From Bacillota bacterium (GTDB lineage Bacteria; Bacillota; Proteinivoracia; UBA4975; VEMY01), in the NCBI GenBank assembly GCA_009711825.1, contig VEMY01000010.1:62001-126000 (forward strand): 64,000 nt of DNA, in the 5' to 3' direction. Below are positions 25,438 to 63,037 of the stretch, piece after piece. The number at the start of each line of letters is the position of its first letter. The first letter of the stretch is position 1. The notes below the pieces were generated by a model. The model was not told the DNA's origin. It worked only from the letters and a program-made list of their open reading frames with translations, and made no database searches. Position numbers and translations under genes: made by a program.

Positions 25438-25992
25438 TTAAGCGCCTCGCTTTCCAGGCCAAAGCTTTTGAACGTAAAATATTACTCTTCCGGCAATCAT
25501 TAATATATCCGGCGCCCTGTTAATAGCCAAGGTCTTGCCAATCCCCTTGCCGCCAACCGTCAGGGAGGCAACCAATGCGGTTAGAATTATACTTAAGTAT
25601 GTGCTTTCTGCAATAATATTATCAGTGGCCAGTTGAAAGATGATTGCCGTAGCTGCAGCACCACTGATAATTCCACTGATATCTCCGACCACATCATTGC
25701 AGAACGTGGCTACCTGCTCGGAATTTTTGGCCAGAGACAATGCCTGGCGGGCGCCAGGCAATCGTTTAGCGGCTTTGGCGTTCAGTGGTGGCAAAGAGGA
25801 AACTGCGGCAGCAGTGCCGATTGTATCAAACACAACCCCCAGCAAGATTATTGCCAGCAAGACCAATAACGACCCAATGAGTCCAAGCCAGCCTAAAAGT
25901 GATTGGGAAACAATATTAAAAAACAAGGATAAAAAAAAAGTCCATAATAAAATATTGCGCAACCAACGCATTGACTGCTTACCGTTAGCCAA
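25438..25992 (-). CDS. oapA: OLE-associated membrane protein OapA
   Basis: This 184-residue protein has about four membrane helices (near 9-30, 36-58, 106-126 and 132-150). A polar stretch (about 63-100) resembles the DUF21/CNNM-CorB region ([18 protein letters not shown], then [15 protein letters not shown]). The basic ends suit RNA binding. The identification rests mainly on position. In OLE-bearing bacteria the gene between OLE RNA and dxs encodes OapA, which tethers the RNA to the membrane as a dimer. The TTG start follows GAGGTGAG at 8 bases. A database would label it a hypothetical or CorB-like protein. I am fairly sure of OapA because the structured RNA precedes it. Confidence 0.82.
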
Positions 25993-26039
25993 AAGAACTC
26001 ACCTCTGACTTCCGACTTCAATTCCGATTCAGACATCTT

Positions 26040-26650
26040 ATATGTAAGGGGTGGTAGCTTGGCAAGTAAATGCTGCGGCTTAGGTCTAGCAGGTTTTCCC
26101 AACGGTTCACCAGCTGTCGCCAGACTGGCGGTTCCCCTTTAAGCCCCGCCCCGACTAACGTCGGCGCCAGATAGCCACTGAGACCGCACTTTAATCCCTG
26201 CCAAGCCTCTTTACAGAACAGCCTAGGAGCTTTCCTCAACGGTACAACCCTCTGCCCTAGCCTCTTTTGCAATTTAGGTTTCAAGCGCCTGAGCACAGTT
26301 GGCGTAGGCCAACGCCAGCTGCGCGGAATACCGCAATCCACCTATTTCGCTCAAGGCAGGCTACACTGCACACAGCCCCTCTTAATATCGGTCGGAACCG
26401 CATACAGGTTCTTCCCAAGCCGTAGCACTATACCCTCTGCATAGCGCCACGCACTTGGGTCTCCACGAAGGCGGGGTCAACGCCTACATGCCCTTGTAGA
26501 TCGCCCCATCCTTCTTAACTCCCAGCACCAACCCCCAACGGGGCGTCGGCAGCCGGCACCAGGAACTTCATCGATGTGCCCTTTGACGGATTTTTAGGCC
26601 CGCCCTCAGACAGAGGTGCACCGACTAGGATACTGCACCACCCTGAATGG
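26040..26650 (-). ncRNA. ole: OLE RNA (ornate, large, extremophilic)
   Basis: The roughly 600-base gap between yuiD/ispA and oapA/dxs has no credible gene but is rich in short perfect helices. The two ends can pair (GGGTGGT of the 5' end, plus 26637-26643, with ACCACCC near the 3' end, plus 26049-26055). Local hairpins include GTTGGC/GCCAAC at 26298-26313, CCGAC/GTCGG at 26151-26164 and CGCCA/TGGCG at 26118-26130. Length, orientation and the flanking isoprenoid genes plus oapA match OLE RNA of extremophilic Firmicutes. OLE forms a membrane ribonucleoprotein linked to stress tolerance and magnesium homeostasis. Exact ends are estimates; no covariance search was possible. Confidence 0.85.
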
Positions 26651-26666
26651 TATTATCAGTTTAACA

Positions 26667-36481: not shown

Positions 36482-37093
36482 TTAATTCGTTTGGTCGGAT
36501 TCCGTAAACTGCCGCTCAAGTTCTGAATGCATGTATAGGCTCACTGACTCTACCGGCAGGTCCACCCGCTCCGCCAAGGCAAAAATCAAATCGTCATTCG
36601 CCAGTTCCAGATAATCGCGGGAGTCCTCGCCCCCTATACGCACCGATTCGATGGCGAATGCTCCCCCTGTTTTCGGAGCGATTAACACCGCCAGTGAATT
36701 AACTGCAACCATGTTGCCATGCTCATCTAGTTCCAAGTCCAGACGCACTCTTGTTTCGGTGCCGGGATAACGCCGGTTCACTGTCGGAGTAAGCTGCTGG
36801 GCCAATTGCTGCTCTACCATTTCCTGTGCATCCAAACTTCCCAGTTGATCCTCACCGTTTTCTGGGTAAGTGCTTATTGTCAATCCCAGTTCCGAGTCCG
36901 CCAGAAATTGCTCTGGATTCCATCCCTGGCCCAATAAGTCCATCACCGGTTGTAAAAGCATTGCCAGAATCAACAAACCTACCACCAATCGACAGTATGT
37001 TTTAAAAGTGTTGCTTGGCAGCAGCAGTTCAAAAAAACCCGCCAAAATTGCCAACAGAATCAGTTTCCGCACTAATTCGTAGAGCGTTTGCAA
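36482..37093 (-). CDS. spoIIIAF: Stage III sporulation protein AF
   Basis: This 203-residue protein has two N-terminal membrane helices (about residues 10-25 and 33-52) with YCRLVVGLLILAMLLQPVMD between and within them. A long soluble domain of ring-building type follows (about 100-200), with TRVRLDLELDEHGNMVAVNS near 111-130. It belongs to the SpoIIIA channel. The small gap to spoIIIAE and the position between AE and AG fix the identity even though the C-terminal half is variable in the family. Confidence 0.9.
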   Translation of the reverse strand: MQTLYELVRKLILLAILAGFFELLLPSNTFKTYCRLVVGLLILAMLLQPVMDLLGQGWNPEQFLADSELGLTISTYPENGEDQLGSLDAQEMVEQQLAQQLTPTVNRRYPGTETRVRLDLELDEHGNMVAVNSLAVLIAPKTGGAFAIESVRIGGEDSRDYLELANDDLIFALAERVDLPVESVSLYMHSELERQFTESDQTN

Positions 37094-37100
37094 GCAGCGC

Positions 37101-38222
37101 TCACCTCACCATCACCATCAGATTCGCTGATGCCACCAGAATTGTAACCACAAAGAAAAACATCAGTGCGGCCGCGGTCAGGGTGCCAATCAGCACAAAG
37201 AGGAAGCCGGCCATTGTATCCAACGTGCCACTGATTCCATCTTCGCCCAAAGGCTGAATCAATGCCGCCGTCAGCCGATAGATCACTGTGATTACAAACA
37301 ATTTTAGAATCGGGAACACACAGATGACTGTCAGCATCACCAAACCAAAAACACCCACCGAGTTTTTGAGCACCAGGGATGCTCCCGCCACCGTCTCAAA
37401 GGCATCGGCAAACATTCCACCCACCACCGGCACCGCCGCCTTGGCGGCGAATTTACCAGTCCGCAAGGCAACACCATCAGCGATTGTGGCCACCGTCCCG
37501 TTGATGACAGTCACACCCACAAACAGCGTCAACAGTAGGCCCAATATCCAAACTGCGCCATCTTTAAGAAAGCCGGCAAGACGCTGTAGCCCAAGGCCGG
37601 ACATCATTTTGTCCACCAACGCCAGGACCATAGCCAAAAACAAGAGCGGCATAATCACATTACTGATAATAAAACCAATCACCGCCGCAGCGGTAAACAA
37701 CAGGGGTTGAAACACAGCCGCCGCCGCAAGGCTGCCCATGCCAGCCAGCAGGGCCAACAAAACCGGTACCAATGCCATGGTGAAGTCGGACATCGCACCC
37801 ACCACTTCACGGACCATGCCACTGGCCACCGTAAAACTATGCACACTCACGGAAAACAGAACCAAAAACACTACCGCACGGCCAACCCGGGCCACTCCAT
37901 CATTGCCAAAGGCCGCTTGCAATCGGTTTAGCACTGCCGCCAGCACCGCCAAAAGCAACAGTTGACCCAACAAAACACCGTTGACCCAGATTTCATGGAA
38001 GAGGAATGTCAGCAGCCCGGAAATCAGACCCAGGATATCAAACCGCGCTCCAGGCGTACGCCAGTCCAATTCCGGCAGATACCGCTCATACTGGGCATAG
38101 GCCGTCTGCCACTGGCGTTCCATCTCCATAAGCATCTCGTCTTCATCCGCGTCAGCGAAGGCCGGAACCGGCGCAAGAATAATTATCACTAGCACCAGGG
38201 CCAATGTCAGCGCCCGTCTCAA
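37101..38222 (-). CDS. spoIIIAE: Stage III sporulation protein AE
   Basis: This 373-residue polytopic protein has an N-terminal signal-like helix (about 1-24) and roughly eight membrane helices between 60 and 370. The conserved LFVGVTVINGTVATIADGVALRT (residues near 229-251) and FAAKAAVPVVGGMFADAFET segments are diagnostic. It is the transporter-like core of the SpoIIIA complex that connects mother cell and forespore. Its start overlaps the stop of spoIIIAD by 4 bases. The length is close to the Bacillus homologue. Confidence 0.95.
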   Translation of the reverse strand: MRRALTLALVLVIIILAPVPAFADADEDEMLMEMERQWQTAYAQYERYLPELDWRTPGARFDILGLISGLLTFLFHEIWVNGVLLGQLLLLAVLAAVLNRLQAAFGNDGVARVGRAVVFLVLFSVSVHSFTVASGMVREVVGAMSDFTMALVPVLLALLAGMGSLAAAAVFQPLLFTAAAVIGFIISNVIMPLLFLAMVLALVDKMMSGLGLQRLAGFLKDGAVWILGLLLTLFVGVTVINGTVATIADGVALRTGKFAAKAAVPVVGGMFADAFETVAGASLVLKNSVGVFGLVMLTVICVFPILKLFVITVIYRLTAALIQPLGEDGISGTLDTMAGFLFVLIGTLTAAALMFFFVVTILVASANLMVMVR

Positions 38223-38611
38223 GGCAGTAACCTCGAAACCGTGTCAAATATTGTCGTGATAATCGGAAGCGCCAATAAAATTATCAAGACCTTGCCGGCC
38301 AGTTCTACCTTGGTGGCAATCGCCCCCTCGCCAGCATCCCGACACACCTGGGAACCAAACTCCGCCATATACGAGATGCCGATTATCCGCAATAACGTCC
38401 CCAAAAACACCATATTCAAATCGGCCTGCAGCGCCAGGCGTTCCAGATAACTAATTACCTCCAACAGCTTCCATGCCACCAGGGCAAAGATCAGTAGGCC
38501 GGCAGCCATAGACACCTGAAAGGCCAGTTCCGGTTTTTCCTGGCGGATCACAATAACCAAAATTGTGGCGACCACTGCCAGGGCAACAACCTGCATAATT
38601 GTCATGGCCAC
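38219..38611 (-). CDS. spoIIIAD: Stage III sporulation protein AD
   Basis: This 130-residue membrane protein has four hydrophobic segments and the LLRIIGISYMAEFGSQVCRD motif near residues 72-91 that marks SpoIIIAD/AC-type proteins. It works with SpoIIIAC and AE in the feeding-tube channel. It lies 5 bases from spoIIIAC and overlaps spoIIIAE by 4. Confidence 0.94.
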   Translation of the reverse strand: MAMTIMQVVALAVVATILVIVIRQEKPELAFQVSMAAGLLIFALVAWKLLEVISYLERLALQADLNMVFLGTLLRIIGISYMAEFGSQVCRDAGEGAIATKVELAGKVLIILLALPIITTIFDTVSRLLP

Positions 38612-38616
38612 TCACC

Positions 38617-38823
38617 TCAGTAAATCTGGAATATTGTCCGGACGGTGTTGAACAAATCTCCTATCAGGTGAATAATGAACATCATTACCATTACCACGCC
38701 CGCCAGAGTGAGCAACTGGGCCTGCTCGTTTTTACCTGCCTGACTGAGCACAGAGGTAAACACCATCAGCAAGATACCAATCCCCGCCAGCTTAAAAAGT
38801 AAATCCACATTTACAACATCCAC
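38617..38823 (-). CDS. spoIIIAC: Stage III sporulation protein AC
   Basis: This 68-residue protein has two membrane helices (about residues 8-26 and 33-52). The sequence VDLLFKLAGIGILLMVFTSV near 7-26 matches SpoIIIAC, which is always small and adjacent to AD. It is part of the membrane core of the SpoIIIA complex. The ATG is 12 bases after the spoIIIAB stop. Confidence 0.94.
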   Translation of the reverse strand: MDVVNVDLLFKLAGIGILLMVFTSVLSQAGKNEQAQLLTLAGVVMVMMFIIHLIGDLFNTVRTIFQIY

Positions 38824-38835
38824 CCGTCAGCCCCC

Positions 38836-39360
38836 CTAGAGCAAAATTATTATCAGAGCAATCCCGCTGAGCACGCCCAGATAGCGCCACATTTTTTCTG
38901 TTTTCTCCCGCTGTTTCTCCGCCTGGATTTCCTCCTGCTGCAGATGCCGTAGGTGCATTTCCAATTGCCGCTCCTGTTCTCCGGTGCAGCCACTGCCAAG
39001 CACCCGCATCAAGCTGTCGACAACCTGCAAATCCTGTTGGCTCAAAGCGGAGTCATGAAGGGCCGCAGTCCCCGTCTGCTGCCAGACCCAATATAATCCC
39101 CGCCCCTCCGCCTGGGCCAGACCTCTAGCCAGAGCCATAAAGAGCCCGGCCACCGGTGCATCCAAGCGCCGGGCAGACAACTGAAACGCATGGGGCAGTG
39201 GTGTTTGCCGGTAGCGGATTTCGCTGAGGAGAATAGTCAACCCGTATTGAAGCATGCGCAATTGCCTGGGCCGATTGCGGATACCCTCCGCCAGGGCAAA
39301 CCCCAAGCCTGTGGAGGCTGCTAGTATCATAAACGCGGCTAATACTCTCAGCATCTTCAA
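38836..39360 (-). CDS. spoIIIAB: Stage III sporulation protein AB
   Basis: This 174-residue protein has an N-terminal membrane helix (about residues 5-23), a helical cytoplasmic domain with QYGLTILLSEIRYRQTPLPH near 38-57, and a C-terminal membrane helix (about 157-174). It resembles type II/IV secretion platform proteins (GspF-like) and pairs with the SpoIIIAA ATPase. It overlaps spoIIIAA by 4 bases. Confidence 0.94.
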   Translation of the reverse strand: MKMLRVLAAFMILAASTGLGFALAEGIRNRPRQLRMLQYGLTILLSEIRYRQTPLPHAFQLSARRLDAPVAGLFMALARGLAQAEGRGLYWVWQQTGTAALHDSALSQQDLQVVDSLMRVLGSGCTGEQERQLEMHLRHLQQEEIQAEKQREKTEKMWRYLGVLSGIALIIILL

Positions 39361-40304
39361 TCACTCCTGTACAAAAATTGCCTGTCAGGCAATGCTATAA
39401 CAGCGGCGAGTCGGGGCTTCCCATTATGCCTGGCCAAAACCAGAATCCGCTCAAAAAAACCTTGGGCAAGTAGTTTCCCTAAGACAGGCTTGTTTTCTGC
39501 ATCCTTTAAATCGTTGGCGTGGGCGGTGCACAGCACCGCCACCCCGGCGCAAAGAGCTGATTCAATTGCCGCCATATCGCCGGAACGGCCCAGCTCATCT
39601 GCCGCTACCACCTGAGGGCCCATTGAGCGGACAAGCATCAACAATCCCTGTTCCTTGGGGCAGGCGTCAAGCACGTCGGTACGCGGGCCCACATCCAGCT
39701 GGGGTACCCCCCGGTAACAGCCGGCCAATTCGGAGCGTTCGTCAACCAGGCCGACATTCAGTCCGGCGCGTCCCTGCCCCCCGGCGCTCAACTGCCGAAC
39801 CAAGTCCCGGAGCAAAGTGGTCTTGCCACAGCGGGGCGGAGCCAGTATCAAAGTGCTGCATACCTGACCCCGGGATGTAAACAACCAGGGGAGTGCAGTA
39901 TCGGCGACGCCCGGCAGTTGCCGGGCCACACGGAAGTTAAGACTAGCGATCTCGGCCATTGCCGTGACCAGATTGTTTTCCGCCACCACCCGGCCGGCAA
40001 CGCCAATCCGGTGACCGCCGGCCACTGTCAGGTAGCCCTGGGCCAGCTGGCCGGCATAGGCATAAAAAGAATACTGACTGAGCAGGTTTACAGTCTCCTG
40101 GATATCCGTAAGGGTTAACACCCCCTCTGGCAGCGGCAGCGGGCAGCTTCTGTCCCCCATATCCAGCAGGGGATGGCTGCCAGAGCGCAGACGAATTTCT
40201 TCCACTTGCTGTCGGTCTCTATGGGGCAACCCACGGATAGCATTACGCACCCTGGGAACTAACAACGGTAGAAGGTGTTCCTCCCACTGCAGCTTAGAAA
40301 GCAA
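39357..40304 (-). CDS. spoIIIAA: Stage III sporulation protein AA (secretion-type ATPase)
   Basis: This 315-residue ATPase has Walker A in LILAPPRCGKTTLLRDLVRQ near residues 151-170, the VDERSELAGCY segment near 187 and the LGRSGDMAAIESALCAGVAV region near 240. It powers the spoIIIA channel, like PilT/GspE-type ATPases. A GTG at 40313 touches its own ribosome binding site, so I prefer the TTG at 40304, 8 bases after AAGGGAGG. It gives an N terminus (M)LSKLQWEEHLLPLLVPRV like other family members. The ribosome binding site lies in a stem of the preceding terminator-like hairpin. Confidence 0.93.
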   Translation of the reverse strand: MLSKLQWEEHLLPLLVPRVRNAIRGLPHRDRQQVEEIRLRSGSHPLLDMGDRSCPLPLPEGVLTLTDIQETVNLLSQYSFYAYAGQLAQGYLTVAGGHRIGVAGRVVAENNLVTAMAEIASLNFRVARQLPGVADTALPWLFTSRGQVCSTLILAPPRCGKTTLLRDLVRQLSAGGQGRAGLNVGLVDERSELAGCYRGVPQLDVGPRTDVLDACPKEQGLLMLVRSMGPQVVAADELGRSGDMAAIESALCAGVAVLCTAHANDLKDAENKPVLGKLLAQGFFERILVLARHNGKPRLAAVIALPDRQFLYRSD

Positions 40305-40352
40305 AAAAAACACCTCCCTTGCAATAATAGATATTGAAGGGAAGGTGTTTTT
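40303..40352 (-). terminator. Terminator-like hairpin containing the spoIIIAA ribosome binding site
   Basis: The arm at 40311-40320 (CACCTCCCTT) pairs with 40337-40347 with one bulge, and the stem extends through flanking A/T pairs. On the minus strand eight T follow (40310-40303). The 3' arm carries AAGGGAGGTG, the spoIIIAA ribosome binding site, and the T run flows into the TTG start. It would both end upstream transcripts and hide the site in read-through RNA. Confidence 0.75.
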
Positions 40353-43054: not shown

Positions 43055-43084
43055 TTGTTATTAAGACCAGATGTTTGCTATACT
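43055..43084 (+). promoter_or_regulatory. Sigma-A promoter of the aminotransferase-reductase fusion gene
   Basis: TTGTTA (43055-43060) and TATACT (43079-43084) are 18 bases apart on the plus strand. It faces away from the aroQ promoter across a 28-base gap. The leader to the ATG at 43230 would be about 140 bases, long enough for a regulatory element, but I see no known one. Confidence 0.65.
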
Positions 43085-43229
43085 AATAAATATCTGAGCA
43101 CAATCTTGTGCACATCGCGTTTTTAAACTCCGAAGGTGTTTAAAATACGCTTCCTTAAACCGTGGTCTGCTTCTTTTTATAGGCGACTCAATTGCAGATT
43201 AGGTGTCACAAAACACTGGAGGGAATTAC

Positions 43230-45806
43230 ATGGGCAATTTCAAGCGACACATCAACCCCTGGCTGGGTGAAATGCTGGAACATCTACATATGAATCTGGA
43301 CTATGAAAAGGGTGAAGGTAGTTTTTTGTATGCCAAGGGCAAAGCGTATTTGGATTGCGTGTCCGCCTACGGCGCCCTTCCCTTCGGCCATAACCCGCCG
43401 GAAATTTGGGCCGCCCTGGAAAAAGTGCGCTCCACCGCCAGGCCAAACTTTATGCAACCCTCGGCGCTAACGCCGGCAGCCGAGCTGGCAGAGCGCCTGC
43501 TTTCCCTCGCGCCTCCCGGCCTGGATTATGTGACTTTCACCAACAGCGGCGCCGAGGCCGTTGAAGCGGCTATAAAACTCGCCCGCTCGGCCACAGGTAG
43601 AAATAAAATCCTCACCACCAGCAATAGTTTTCATGGCAAAACCCTGGGCGCCCTCTCGGCCACCGGTAAAGAATCTTATCAAGCGGCCTTTGGCGCTCCG
43701 GTCCCCGGCTTCGATTACATCCCTTTCGGCGATTCCCATGCGCTTGCCGCATACCTGGAGGCCGACAGTGGGAAGCCGGCAGCGTTTATTGTGGAGCCGG
43801 TGCAGGGTGAAGGCGGCGTTGTACTACCGCCTGCGGGCTACCTAAAAGCTGTGCGTGAGCTCTGCAGCAAACATCAGGTTGTGTTAATTGTTGATGAGAT
43901 TCAAACCGGACTGGGCCGCACCGGCCGCTTGTTTGCTTGCGAAACGGAGGCTATTACTCCCGATGTGCTGCTTTTGGCCAAAGCCCTAGGCGGCGGGCTG
44001 ATGCCCATCGGCGCAGTCTTGAGCAAGAAAGACTTCTATTCCAGTGAATATGGACTTAAACATTCTTCTACATTCGCCGGCGGCACTTTGGCCTGTGAGG
44101 CGGGCATTGCAGTCTTGGAGCTGTTGACTGCCGATGGCCAGGCAATGGTAAAAAAAGCAGCCGAAACAGGCGCCTGGCTCCACCAGCGTCTAGAGGTACT
44201 CACTGCCCCCTATGATTTTGTTACTGTCCGGGGACGGGGACTGATGCTGGGCCTGGAGTTCAACATCGACAGAAACACCCATCCCCATTGCCTGCTTGGC
44301 AATTTGGCGGAACAGCAGCTTTTGACGCCGCTGGTCTCCAGCCATCTCCTGAATCAACATCAGGTGCGGGTGGCGCCAACACTAAACGGCGCCAATGTTA
44401 TCCGCATCCAGCCCCCGTTGACAATAACAGAAACAGAAGCAGAGCAGCTTTTGACAGCTCTTGAACAGACATTGCACCTTTTGGACCAGGGCGATACCGG
44501 CGCGCTGCTCAGCCCGCTGTTGGCCGATGGCAGCCCCACCCGGCTACCCCGCAAGCGTATCCCCCGTCAGCCCCAGATTCCGCGGGGCCGCAAATTTGCT
44601 TTTCTGCTCCATCCCCTGGCTGCCAACAGTTTTTCAGAGTTCGACGCCAGCCTCGGGCAGTTAAAACCCGAACAATTGGATGTCCTGATTCAGGACTGGC
44701 AGTCGGAACTATCGCCCTTTGTAATCGGCGAAGCGCCAATTCAATCGGCCGCCGGCGTCAGCGCCACTTGTCAGTTTATCAACATCCCAGCAACGGCTAA
44801 ACAGTTGATGGAAATGAATCCGGAAGCCAGTCTCGCCCTGGTGCGCCAAGGCGTAGAACTGGCCCGGGAGCAGGGCGCGGAGCTGGTGGGCCTGGGCGCC
44901 TTCACCTCGGTTGTCACCTGGGGCGGCATGCGGGTCCGGGATGTGGGTGTGCCTTTGACCACCGGCAACAGCTATACGGTGGCCACCGCCGGCGAGGCCG
45001 TGCTCCAGGCCCTGGAGCGGCTGGGCATTTTGCCCCAGCGAACAACGGCGGCGGTGGTTGGCGCGTCTGGCTCCATCGGTAGCGCCCTTTCCCACCTGCT
45101 GGCCGAATCGGTGGGTCACTTGGTGCTACTGGGCAACCCGTCCAATCCCCAACGCAGCCGTCAACGCCTGCAGGCAGTGGCAGACTCCATTTGCCGTCAC
45201 TTGCTGACAGAAGCGCCAGACAGTGCCATTGGCCAGATGCTCCGCAGACTACAGCCGCCGGCTACAACAGCCGATGACGACACGTTTACCAAGTTCTTTG
45301 TGGATGCTGCCAAGAATATTCCCATCACCATCAGCGTCGATGCCGACGCCTCCCTGCCCCGGGCCGACGTCGTGGCCACCGCAACCAATTCGGTCAGCGA
45401 GTTGGTGACCCCGGGCAATGTGAAATTCGGCGCCGTTGTCTGCGATCTTTCACGGCCAGCCAATGTCAGTCGGGAAATCAAACGCCTGCGTCCCGATGTG
45501 CTTGTCATCGATGGCGGCGTGGTCGAACTCTGGCAGCGCCCGGATCTTGGGTGGAATTTCGGGTTTGAGCAGGGCCTGGGTTATGCTTGCATGGCAGAAA
45601 CCATGCTGCTGGCTCTTGAAGGCCATCTCCAGCACACCAGCATCGGCAGCAACATTCCCATGGAGACCGTGCTGATGATGCGCAAGCTGGCCCAAAAACA
45701 CGGTTTTCGGGTCGCAGATTTACGCAGCTTCGACAAGCCGCTTTCTGAAGCCGATTGGCAGCGGGTTGTCCGTGCCCGCAACGGTCATTCCAAAAAGGTA
45801 AATTGA
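43230..45806 (+). CDS. Fusion of class III aminotransferase and acyl-ACP-reductase-like domain
   Basis: This 858-residue protein has two catalytic halves. Residues 1-425 are a fold-type I class III aminotransferase: TNSGAEAVEAAIKLAR near 104-119, VDEIQTGLGRTGR near 221-233 with the PLP Asp222, and AKALGGGLMPIGA near 250-262 with the Schiff-base Lys251. Residues about 460-850 resemble cyanobacterial fatty acyl-ACP reductase: GLGAFTSVVTWGG near 554, LTTGNSYTVATAG near 576, the Rossmann turn GASGSIGSAL at 611-620, and ACMAETMLLALE near 786 with a Cys at the position of the reductase nucleophile. The likely reaction is acyl thioester to aldehyde to amine, or the reverse; this is inference. The ATG at 43230 follows GGAGGG. 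It is the only plus-strand gene. Confidence 0.85.
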   Translation: MGNFKRHINPWLGEMLEHLHMNLDYEKGEGSFLYAKGKAYLDCVSAYGALPFGHNPPEIWAALEKVRSTARPNFMQPSALTPAAELAERLLSLAPPGLDYVTFTNSGAEAVEAAIKLARSATGRNKILTTSNSFHGKTLGALSATGKESYQAAFGAPVPGFDYIPFGDSHALAAYLEADSGKPAAFIVEPVQGEGGVVLPPAGYLKAVRELCSKHQVVLIVDEIQTGLGRTGRLFACETEAITPDVLLLAKALGGGLMPIGAVLSKKDFYSSEYGLKHSSTFAGGTLACEAGIAVLELLTADGQAMVKKAAETGAWLHQRLEVLTAPYDFVTVRGRGLMLGLEFNIDRNTHPHCLLGNLAEQQLLTPLVSSHLLNQHQVRVAPTLNGANVIRIQPPLTITETEAEQLLTALEQTLHLLDQGDTGALLSPLLADGSPTRLPRKRIPRQPQIPRGRKFAFLLHPLAANSFSEFDASLGQLKPEQLDVLIQDWQSELSPFVIGEAPIQSAAGVSATCQFINIPATAKQLMEMNPEASLALVRQGVELAREQGAELVGLGAFTSVVTWGGMRVRDVGVPLTTGNSYTVATAGEAVLQALERLGILPQRTTAAVVGASGSIGSALSHLLAESVGHLVLLGNPSNPQRSRQRLQAVADSICRHLLTEAPDSAIGQMLRRLQPPATTADDDTFTKFFVDAAKNIPITISVDADASLPRADVVATATNSVSELVTPGNVKFGAVVCDLSRPANVSREIKRLRPDVLVIDGGVVELWQRPDLGWNFGFEQGLGYACMAETMLLALEGHLQHTSIGSNIPMETVLMMRKLAQKHGFRVADLRSFDKPLSEADWQRVVRARNGHSKKVN

Positions 45807-45812
45807 TTACCC

Positions 45813-45837
45813 TAGCCCTGCCCTGCAGGGCTATTTT
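45813..45837 (+). terminator. Terminator of the fusion gene
   Basis: A perfect 9-bp stem TAGCCCTGC/GCAGGGCTA (45813-45821 and 45825-45833) has a 3-base loop followed by TTTT on the plus strand. It lies 7 bases after the stop codon. Confidence 0.88.
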
Positions 45838-51257: not shown

Positions 51258-52379
51258 TTATTTAGCCTCCCGTTTATAAAATGGTAATTTAACAACTTTC
51301 GCCTTCAGCCGGCGATTACGCACGCCAACCAAGACGGTGGTGCCTTCCTCGATGTAACTGGTGTCCATAAGGGCATTGGCTATGTTCTTGCCCACTGTCG
51401 GGGAGAAAGAGCCGGTTGTAATAACACCAATCTGATCGCCAGCTTCATTGTAAACCGGATACTCGGCCCGGGGAATGCCGCGGTCCAACATTTCCAGACC
51501 CCGTAATCTCCGTTTCAGGCCTGCTTCCTTCTGGGCAATCAGGGCCTGCTTGCCGATATAATCGGCTTCCTTCTTCAGCTTGACAAAGAATCCAAGCCCT
51601 GCTTCCAACGGCGATATTTCCGGGGAAATTTCATGTCCATACAGGGGCAGGTTGGCTTCAAAACGCAAAGTGTCGCGAGAGCCCAGCCCTGCCGGCAAGA
51701 GACCTTTGTCTTTCCCTGCCTCCATAATCGCCTCCCAAAGCGGAGCCGCGACGTCCGGCCGGCAGTAAATCTCAAATCCATCTTCGCCAGTATAGCCGGT
51801 CCGGGAAATCAAACAGGAGCGGCCAGCGACATTGGCTTCATGGACAAAGCGGAAAAAGCCCAGCTGATCCAGGGGGATATCAGTAATTTTTTGCAAAATC
51901 GCCTCCGCCTCCGGCCCCTGGAGCGCCAATTGCGCTGTGGTGTCGGAAGTATTCTCCAGCTGGATACCCTGCCAGCAATGTTGCTGTAACCAGAGCCAAT
52001 CCTTTTCAGCGTTGGCGGCGTTGACAACCAAGAGAAATTTCTGGGCGTTGAACCGATAGACCAGCAAATCATCCACCACACCGCCATCGGGATAGCACAT
52101 CAGGGTATACATTACCTGACCGTCCACCAAACGGCCGATGTCATTGGTCAGCATGGATTGCAGCCAATCCAGTGCTTTTTCTCCGCCGACAACGATTTCC
52201 CCCATATGGGAAACATCAAACAGTCCGGCCCGGTTACGCACAGCGTCGATTTCTTCCAGAATGCCGCTATACTGAACCGGCAGCGCCCAACCACCAAAGT
52301 CGACAATTTTTCCGCCAGCGTCCACGTGTTGCTGATACAAAGGTGTCTTGTTCAAGTTTTCCAAATCCAATAATCCCAC
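51258..52379 (-). CDS. gcvT: Glycine cleavage system T protein (aminomethyltransferase)
   Basis: This 373-residue enzyme transfers the aminomethyl carbon to THF and releases ammonia. Characteristic segments are KIVDFGGWALPVQYSGILEE near residues 24-43, LFDVSHMGEIVVGG near 53-66, and ISRTGYTGEDGFEIYC near 195-210. SRDTLRFEANLPLYGHEI lies near 237-254. It is the first gene after the glycine riboswitch, with GGAGG before its ATG. Length is normal. The order T, H, PA, PB, L is the common Gram-positive layout. Confidence 0.96.
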   Translation of the reverse strand: MGLLDLENLNKTPLYQQHVDAGGKIVDFGGWALPVQYSGILEEIDAVRNRAGLFDVSHMGEIVVGGEKALDWLQSMLTNDIGRLVDGQVMYTLMCYPDGGVVDDLLVYRFNAQKFLLVVNAANAEKDWLWLQQHCWQGIQLENTSDTTAQLALQGPEAEAILQKITDIPLDQLGFFRFVHEANVAGRSCLISRTGYTGEDGFEIYCRPDVAAPLWEAIMEAGKDKGLLPAGLGSRDTLRFEANLPLYGHEISPEISPLEAGLGFFVKLKKEADYIGKQALIAQKEAGLKRRLRGLEMLDRGIPRAEYPVYNEAGDQIGVITTGSFSPTVGKNIANALMDTSYIEEGTTVLVGVRNRRLKAKVVKLPFYKREAK

Positions 52380-52438: not shown

Positions 52439-52608
52439 CCTGTTACCTGAGAGATTTCATCCCCTTTGGTGCGCTGCAAACAACGCTCTCCAGAGTTGTG
52501 TCCAAGTGACAGTACTTTTGCCTGAGAGTTTCGGCCTGAACGCAACATTTCAAGGCCTTGCTCCTTCGGCGCCCGCCGTGCGCGGATCTCTCCCGTCACC
52601 CATCATCC
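52435..52608 (-). promoter_or_regulatory. Tandem glycine riboswitch (two aptamers)
   Basis: Aptamer 1 (about 52602-52501) starts GGGAGAGATC and ends with ACTCTCAGGCAAAAGTACTG. Aptamer 2 (about 52499-52435) starts CTCTGGAGAGCG and ends with ATCTCTCAGGTAACAGGACAG. The GGAGAG opening and CTCTCAGG-AA-AGGAC closing elements of each are the gcvT-motif signature. Two aptamers in tandem upstream of gcvT are the standard glycine-sensing arrangement. Together with the downstream terminator it should be an ON switch for the gcv operon. Confidence 0.95.
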
Positions 52609-61822: not shown

Positions 61823-63037
61823 TTATGGTTGGACGATGTCTCCCATTTGGAACATGGGCAGCATAACTGCCACAAGGACCAAACCAACAATACCGGCGAG
61901 AAACAATATAAGGAAAGGCTCAATAATCGAGCTCAACCGGTCCACAGTGTAGCGTACCTCTGCCTCGTAGAAATCAGCGACTTTACTCAACATAGTATCC
62001 ATTGCCCCAGATTCCTCGCCTACCTTGAGCATATGCAACAATAAGGGGGTGAACCGAGGAGATGCGCTCAACCCCGCAGTCAAAGTCAATCCTTCGGAAA
62101 CACCTTTGCGTGCATGAAGAACAGCGCTTGCGTATTCAACATTATTTACAACCCTGGCTACGATTTCCAAAGCAGTAATCATTGGAACGCCGCTGGCCAC
62201 CAGAATACTTAATGACCGGCAAAATCTCGCCATCGCGGCATTTTGGAACATCGTGCCAAACTTGGGCAATTTTAAGCTCAATCTTTGCGTTGCGTGTTTG
62301 CCTTTGGTTGTTCCAAGATAACGTTTAAGCCCGATAAACGCAGCAATCAGCATAACAATCAGAAGCAGAAACTGATTTTGCATAAAGTCACTAACTGCCA
62401 ACATCCCCTTGGTAATGCCCGGGAGTTCCATACCGCCCTCAGCAAACATGTCTGCAAAATTCGGGACAACAAAAACCATCAAACCAATTGTGATTCCAAT
62501 CGCAAATACAGCAATAAATATGGGATAAGTCGAAGCAGATTTAACTTTTTCCTGAATCTCACTCTGATTTTCAAAGTAATCGGCCATACGCTCCAGCACA
62601 TCATCCAGGGCACCGGATGCTTCACCGGCTTCCACCATACTGGTGAAGATGGTGGGAAATAAATCTTTGTGACGTTGGCAGGCTTCACTAAAAGTCTTGC
62701 CGGACTCCAAATCCTTGCCAACTTCGCCAAGCGCATCACCCAAAACAGGGTTCTCAGCCTGGGAGGCAATGGCAGAAATGGATGACATAATTGTGACCCC
62801 GGCCTTGACCATTGTCGCCATTTGCCGGCAAAACATAGCAAATTCCTTTAAAGGAATCCCTTTTTTCTTTAAAAAGCTCACGCCCTGACTTTTTGCTTTA
62901 CCTACATTAAGCTGGAGGACAATCATCCGCTTCTCCCTGAGCATAGCGGCGGCACGGTTCATGTCATCAGCCTGAATCTGTCCACTTACAACCTTACCGG
63001 TAGCATCCCGAGCTTTATATGTATAAATGTTGGACAT
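61823..63037 (-). CDS. pilC: PilC inner-membrane platform protein
   Basis: This 404-residue protein has two type II secretion F domains. The first contains KEFAMFCRQMATMVKAGVTI near residues 64-83 and the second MARFCRSLSILVASGVPMIT near 268-287. Membrane helices lie near 168-190, 220-240 and 376-398, with a GAMD-type motif in VGEESGAMDTMLSKVADFYE near 343-362. It anchors the pilus motor. It follows the PilT gene by 17 bases. Confidence 0.95.
   Translation of the reverse strand: MSNIYTYKARDATGKVVSGQIQADDMNRAAAMLREKRMIVLQLNVGKAKSQGVSFLKKKGIPLKEFAMFCRQMATMVKAGVTIMSSISAIASQAENPVLGDALGEVGKDLESGKTFSEACQRHKDLFPTIFTSMVEAGEASGALDDVLERMADYFENQSEIQEKVKSASTYPIFIAVFAIGITIGLMVFVVPNFADMFAEGGMELPGITKGMLAVSDFMQNQFLLLIVMLIAAFIGLKRYLGTTKGKHATQRLSLKLPKFGTMFQNAAMARFCRSLSILVASGVPMITALEIVARVVNNVEYASAVLHARKGVSEGLTLTAGLSASPRFTPLLLHMLKVGEESGAMDTMLSKVADFYEAEVRYTVDRLSSIIEPFLILFLAGIVGLVLVAVMLPMFQMGDIVQP

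Follow-up and report, generated by a model that had tools for sequence, protein, structure and literature searches.

What does a protein that joins a class III aminotransferase (TA) to a thioester reductase (TR) resembling acyl-acyl carrier protein (ACP) reductase contribute to a member of the Bacillota? Such a protein, of 858 amino acids, is encoded in the 64,000-nucleotide stretch of contig VEMY01000010.1 that we analyzed (positions 62,001 to 126,000 of the contig; hereafter the window, in which all coordinates below are counted unless a locus is named). Its domains, its catalytic residues and its relatives make it likely that the protein is a bifunctional thioester reductase/transaminase of the type represented by PtTamH and TfFusion, which in this lineage replaces the separate TA and TR genes. 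The parts of the gene that carry this reading are as follows.

43230-45806, plus strand: TA-TR fusion gene, 858 amino acids; relatives align end to end at 40-62% identity
43284-44474, plus strand: class III aminotransferase (TA) domain, residues 19-415; Pfam PF00202 (Aminotran_3), 1.8e-93; Z 31.1 against structure 4ppm
43893-43895, plus strand: Asp222 codon, partner of the pyridine nitrogen of pyridoxal phosphate (PLP); invariant in 21 fusions
43980-43982, plus strand: Lys251 codon, PLP Schiff base; invariant in 21 fusions
44475-44591, plus strand: linker between the domain borders, residues 416-454; predicted local distance difference test (pLDDT) below 50 at residues 438-450
44592-45764, plus strand: acyl-ACP-reductase-like (TR) domain, residues 455-845
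45060-45080, plus strand: GASGSIG dinucleotide-binding turn, residues 611-617, from residue check and conservation
45588-45590, plus strand: Cys787 codon, predicted to be the acyl-enzyme nucleophile; lines up with AAR Cys294 and PigE Cys296
45804-45806, plus strand: stop codon

Domains, catalytic residues and fold

Both halves of the fusion match PigE of the prodigiosin pathway, and in phmmer searches the TR half matched PigE at 1.6e-33 and the cyanobacterial (Synechococcus) acyl-ACP reductase AAR at 5e-16. A preliminary description had placed Lys251 and Asp222 in the aminotransferase half, and a GXXGXXG turn and Cys787 in the reductase half. The numbering is correct, the turn corresponds to G611-G614-G617, and D222, K251, G611, G614, G617 and C787 are identical in 21/21 fusions compared. 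A failure of Cys787 to align with the catalytic Cys had been set beforehand as a refutation, but Cys787 pairs with the acyl-enzyme residue of AAR, Cys294 (PMC7089970), and with PigE Cys296 (PMC8341465), and the position is conserved in the 21 fusions, 3 PigE proteins and 13 stand-alone reductases.

An AlphaFold2 model of the fusion was built from nine sequences. The best structural match of its N-terminal half is PigE (4ppm), and residues 455-845 have the AAR fold, as the proposed structure check had anticipated (6jzq, Z 29.7, root-mean-square deviation 3.5 Å, 322/345 residues aligned). The TR half modelled alone without an alignment reached a pLDDT of 39 and was not used for the fold search. 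The TR part is also matched by PDB entries named 'TAD from carmabin pathway', for which our literature search found no paper.

Fused and split forms in Bacillota

The domains of the fusion also occur as separate proteins. In a sample of 111 Bacillota-type genomes, a catalytic stand-alone TR (above 350 bits or, in the case of G097, the same gene truncated at the end of a contig) was found in 58 genomes and the fusion in 19, and no genome had both. A stand-alone TA of this type was present in 52 genomes, 48 of which also have the stand-alone TR, and in one of them (G087, locus L078) the TA gene is directly followed by the TR gene.

The stand-alone TR lies directly 3' of c2, a gene of about 300 amino acids, in 51/58 genomes, and the order in the loci read in detail is dus, a helix-turn-helix (HTH) gene, c2, TR, greA and lysS. 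c2 is present in 87/111 sampled genomes and has no match in Pfam or NCBIfam. The window's own genome (C23) has kept dus, HTH, c2, a degenerate TR and greA (L060:4358-8433); the TR slot holds a weakly TR-like protein of 320 amino acids (P0002) with Asn at the Cys position. In three other fusion-carrying genomes (G001, G002 and G005) the slot is empty. Therefore, since the fusion never coexists with a catalytic stand-alone TR, the TA co-occurs with the TR and the TR in the host operon is degenerate, the fused protein and the separate pair appear to be two ways of fulfilling a single widespread function, with no natural-product cluster visible around it. Most simply, catalysis passed to the fusion, while the former TR degenerated or acquired another function. 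Four further genomes (G013, G018, G022 and G038) likewise have stand-alone TRs without the catalytic Cys. TR homologues of this kind still lie beside c2 in loci L073, L074, L076 and L077, and Cys-less TRs in this position are perhaps kept for a non-catalytic role.

End-to-end fusions were found across Bacillota and in a few Proteobacteria, namely Paraburkholderia phymatum, Rhodobacterales and Leisingera. In the TR tree, which includes a Thermaerobacter-like fusion (L031) and leaves out PtTamH and KecF, all fusions fall into a single clade (support 100). The TA tree places them together with PigE (support 99) among the stand-alone TAs of Bacillota; deeper branches are weak. Because of these groupings, the trees fit one origin of the fusion followed by transfer. 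The gene neighbours of the Bacillota fusions share no pathway beyond closely related genomes, with the exception of an HTH gene upstream of the fusions in L004, L007 and L031, joined by c2 in L004. On a plasmid of P. phymatum (L054:7653-18070) the fusion stands with genes for a fatty-acyl-AMP ligase, a P450, a GST-like and an LPG_synthase_C-like protein, a run that looks like an uncharacterised lipid-amine cluster. A plasmid of Leisingera thetidis (L052:7959-12146) encodes a 1395-amino-acid protein with TA, TR and adenylation domains in one chain, adjoining an MMPL transporter.

The alternation of fused and split forms and the conserved operon suggest that an acyl-thioester-derived amine, or aldehyde handling, is common in Bacillota outside natural-product clusters, and these surroundings matter more than the enzyme itself. 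The literature searched has no substrate or product on record for TA-TR enzymes of any Bacillota. Tentatively, an acyl-thioester-to-amine module, whether fused or split, might be present in most of the sampled spore-forming Bacillota, together with a conserved HTH protein and the unannotated partner of about 300 amino acids next to greA-lysS. Its product would be an alkyl-amine or aminolipid not yet described, belonging to primary metabolism and not an antibiotic. A sporulation role was also considered; the module is more frequent in genomes that have spoIIIAE (71/94) than in those that do not (6/17), but ancestry and incomplete genomes confound this association and no such role is therefore claimed.

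Characterised relatives and competing explanations

The preliminary description knew of no characterised enzyme with this architecture, which was mistaken, as PtTamH (2022), KecF, PP_2782 and three Bacillota fusions (2024) share it. The window fusion adds one member to a small characterised group, in which proteins of identical architecture were purified and assayed from 2022 onwards. PtTamH from Pseudoalteromonas tunicata resembles it in having an N-terminal class III TA, a C-terminal AAR-like TR, the GxxGxxG motif and the catalytic Cys (PMC9594044). However, PtTamH has 941 amino acids and belongs to the tambjamine cluster, which also encodes its ANL-ACP partner TamA, whereas no TamA-type partner lies beside the window gene. 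In vitro, PtTamH uses NADH and L-Glu to turn C12-ACP into the C12 amine, and the intermediate aldehyde was detected; the enzyme is specific for NADH and prefers C12 (PMC9594044).

In the work of Prout et al. (2024), PP_2782 and three fusions from Bacillota were purified and found to act as transaminases on aliphatic aldehydes, and the catalytic Cys was mapped (PMC10829540). The three, TmFusion and TsFusion from Thermaerobacter and TfFusion from Thermincola ferriacetica, have the same TA-TR order and Cys as the window fusion and are probably its orthologues; their genomes contain prodiginine-like clusters according to antiSMASH (PMC10829540). The fusion at locus L031 (72% GC) shares 53% identity with the window protein, and with translation from the second Met its Cys would be residue 815. 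The catalytic Cys of TsFusion is reported at 815 (PMC10829540), so we take L031 to be TsFusion or a near relative. KecF and PP_2782 also share the architecture, but lie inside koreenceine-type type II fatty acid synthase/polyketide synthase clusters (PMC6498172, PMC10829540).

PigE (4ppm, PMC8341465) has both domains as homologues and likewise combines thioester reduction with transamination. Unlike the window fusion, it has the TR before the TA and sits in the pig cluster; against the PigE profile NF053554 the window fusion scores 598.5 bits, under the cut-off of 850, with the order TA-TR and not TR-TA. Synechococcus AAR (6jzq, 6jzu, 6jzy) shares the fold and Cys of the TR half, but is a stand-alone, NADPH-dependent enzyme that passes its aldehyde to ADO, and its profile TIGR04058 gives the window fusion 79.8 bits, below the cut-off of 449.7. 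In the phmmer alignment, the fusion has no Arg at two of the three AAR arginines for the NADPH phosphate (R189 and R314). Since PtTamH is NADH-specific, we guess with low confidence that the window fusion uses NADH rather than NADPH.

The earlier proposal that a single protein could take an acyl thioester to an aldehyde and then to an amine is thus plausible, as PtTamH, with the same domain order, does so in vitro (PMC9594044). In the window fusion, the acyl group would move from a carrier thioester, probably acyl-ACP, to Cys787, and hydride from NAD(P)H, more likely NADH, would free the aldehyde. The N-terminal PLP domain (Lys251), once loaded from an amino donor (L-Glu, for example), would then turn the aldehyde into a primary amine. 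The fusion would in this way do the work of the separate TA and TR genes of other Bacillota.

Several points weigh against this reading. The AlphaFold2 model is of moderate confidence (mean pLDDT 75.8, predicted template modelling score 0.67), and the study of the Bacillota fusions measured only their TA activity and not the reductase step (PMC10829540). The Fisher tests for exclusion of the fusion and the catalytic stand-alone TR (p 1e-7) and for co-occurrence of TA and TR (p 1e-16) ignore shared ancestry. Additionally, no ACP, acyl ligase or biosynthetic cluster was identified among the flanking genes checked.

The acyl group and the direction of the reaction can also be read differently. 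The same chemistry may possibly act on a short, branched, polyketide or amino-acyl thioester instead of a long-chain fatty acid, given that the thioester reduced by PigE is a substituted one of medium chain length, that a polyketide is the proposed substrate of KecF, that putrescine and acetylornithine transaminases are among the TA relatives of known structure, and that it is in the acyl pocket that reductases of this sort vary. However, the nearest tested homologues favour aliphatic aldehydes, with PtTamH favouring C12. It is unlikely that the protein works in the reverse, catabolic direction, in which the TA would make an aldehyde from an amine, for oxidative transfer to a thiol carrier by the TR. 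While both half reactions are reversible in principle and putrescine aminotransferase is among the nearest single-domain TA families, PtTamH and PigE work reductively and no amine-uptake or catabolic genes were identified beside the window fusion.

It is more doubtful still that the fusion supplies the amine arm of an alkaloid resembling prodiginines, a role suggested by antiSMASH in the case of Thermaerobacter and Thermincola (PMC10829540). Relatives in the family do act in prodiginine-like clusters, but no tambjamine/prodiginine (pyrrole) cluster with ACP/ANL genes was identified among the flanking genes in the window, and the neighbours are not conserved between distant Bacillota. The reductive conversion of an acyl thioester into an amine remains our preferred reading, and enzymes of this group are of use in amine biocatalysis.

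Gene signals and surroundings

The fusion gene is preceded and followed by these candidate signals.

43055-43084, plus strand: possible promoter TTGTTA-18-TATACT, consensus match only
43218-43223, plus strand: ribosome binding site GGAGGG for the ATG at 43230, from sequence reading
45813-45837, plus strand: possible terminator, stem-loop followed by TTTT

An alternative GTG start 27 bases upstream of the ATG at 43230 would give a protein of 867 amino acids. The gene had been credited with its own promoter and terminator. The promoter part stands as a match, with 4 promoter-like sites observed in the window vs 1.1 expected, but terminator-like sites are at chance level (4 vs 3.9 expected), and the candidate terminator may be shared because it overlaps the end of the convergent DUF421 gene. 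The window is consistent with the fusion being its sole plus-strand gene: the other plus-strand open reading frames (ORFs) of at least 150 amino acids oppose minus-strand ORFs, and the three of them that were tested have no Pfam match.

The neighbours of the fusion (aroQ, pepP, efp-like, DUF421, lpd, gcvT and spoIIIA) are housekeeping and sporulation genes. The minus strand carries a sporulation stage III cluster at 36482-40310, in which spoIIIAA, AB, AE and AF were recognised and which makes the host a probable spore former. A tRNA search of the window found none. A full-length OLE RNA is located at 26035-26657 on the minus strand (RF01071, 499 bits, model 1-616), and an adjoining ORF for a 184-amino-acid membrane protein (25438-25992) may encode its partner protein OapA. 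Upstream of gcvT (51258-52379), a glycine riboswitch is found at 52500-52605 on the minus strand (RF00504, 66 bits).
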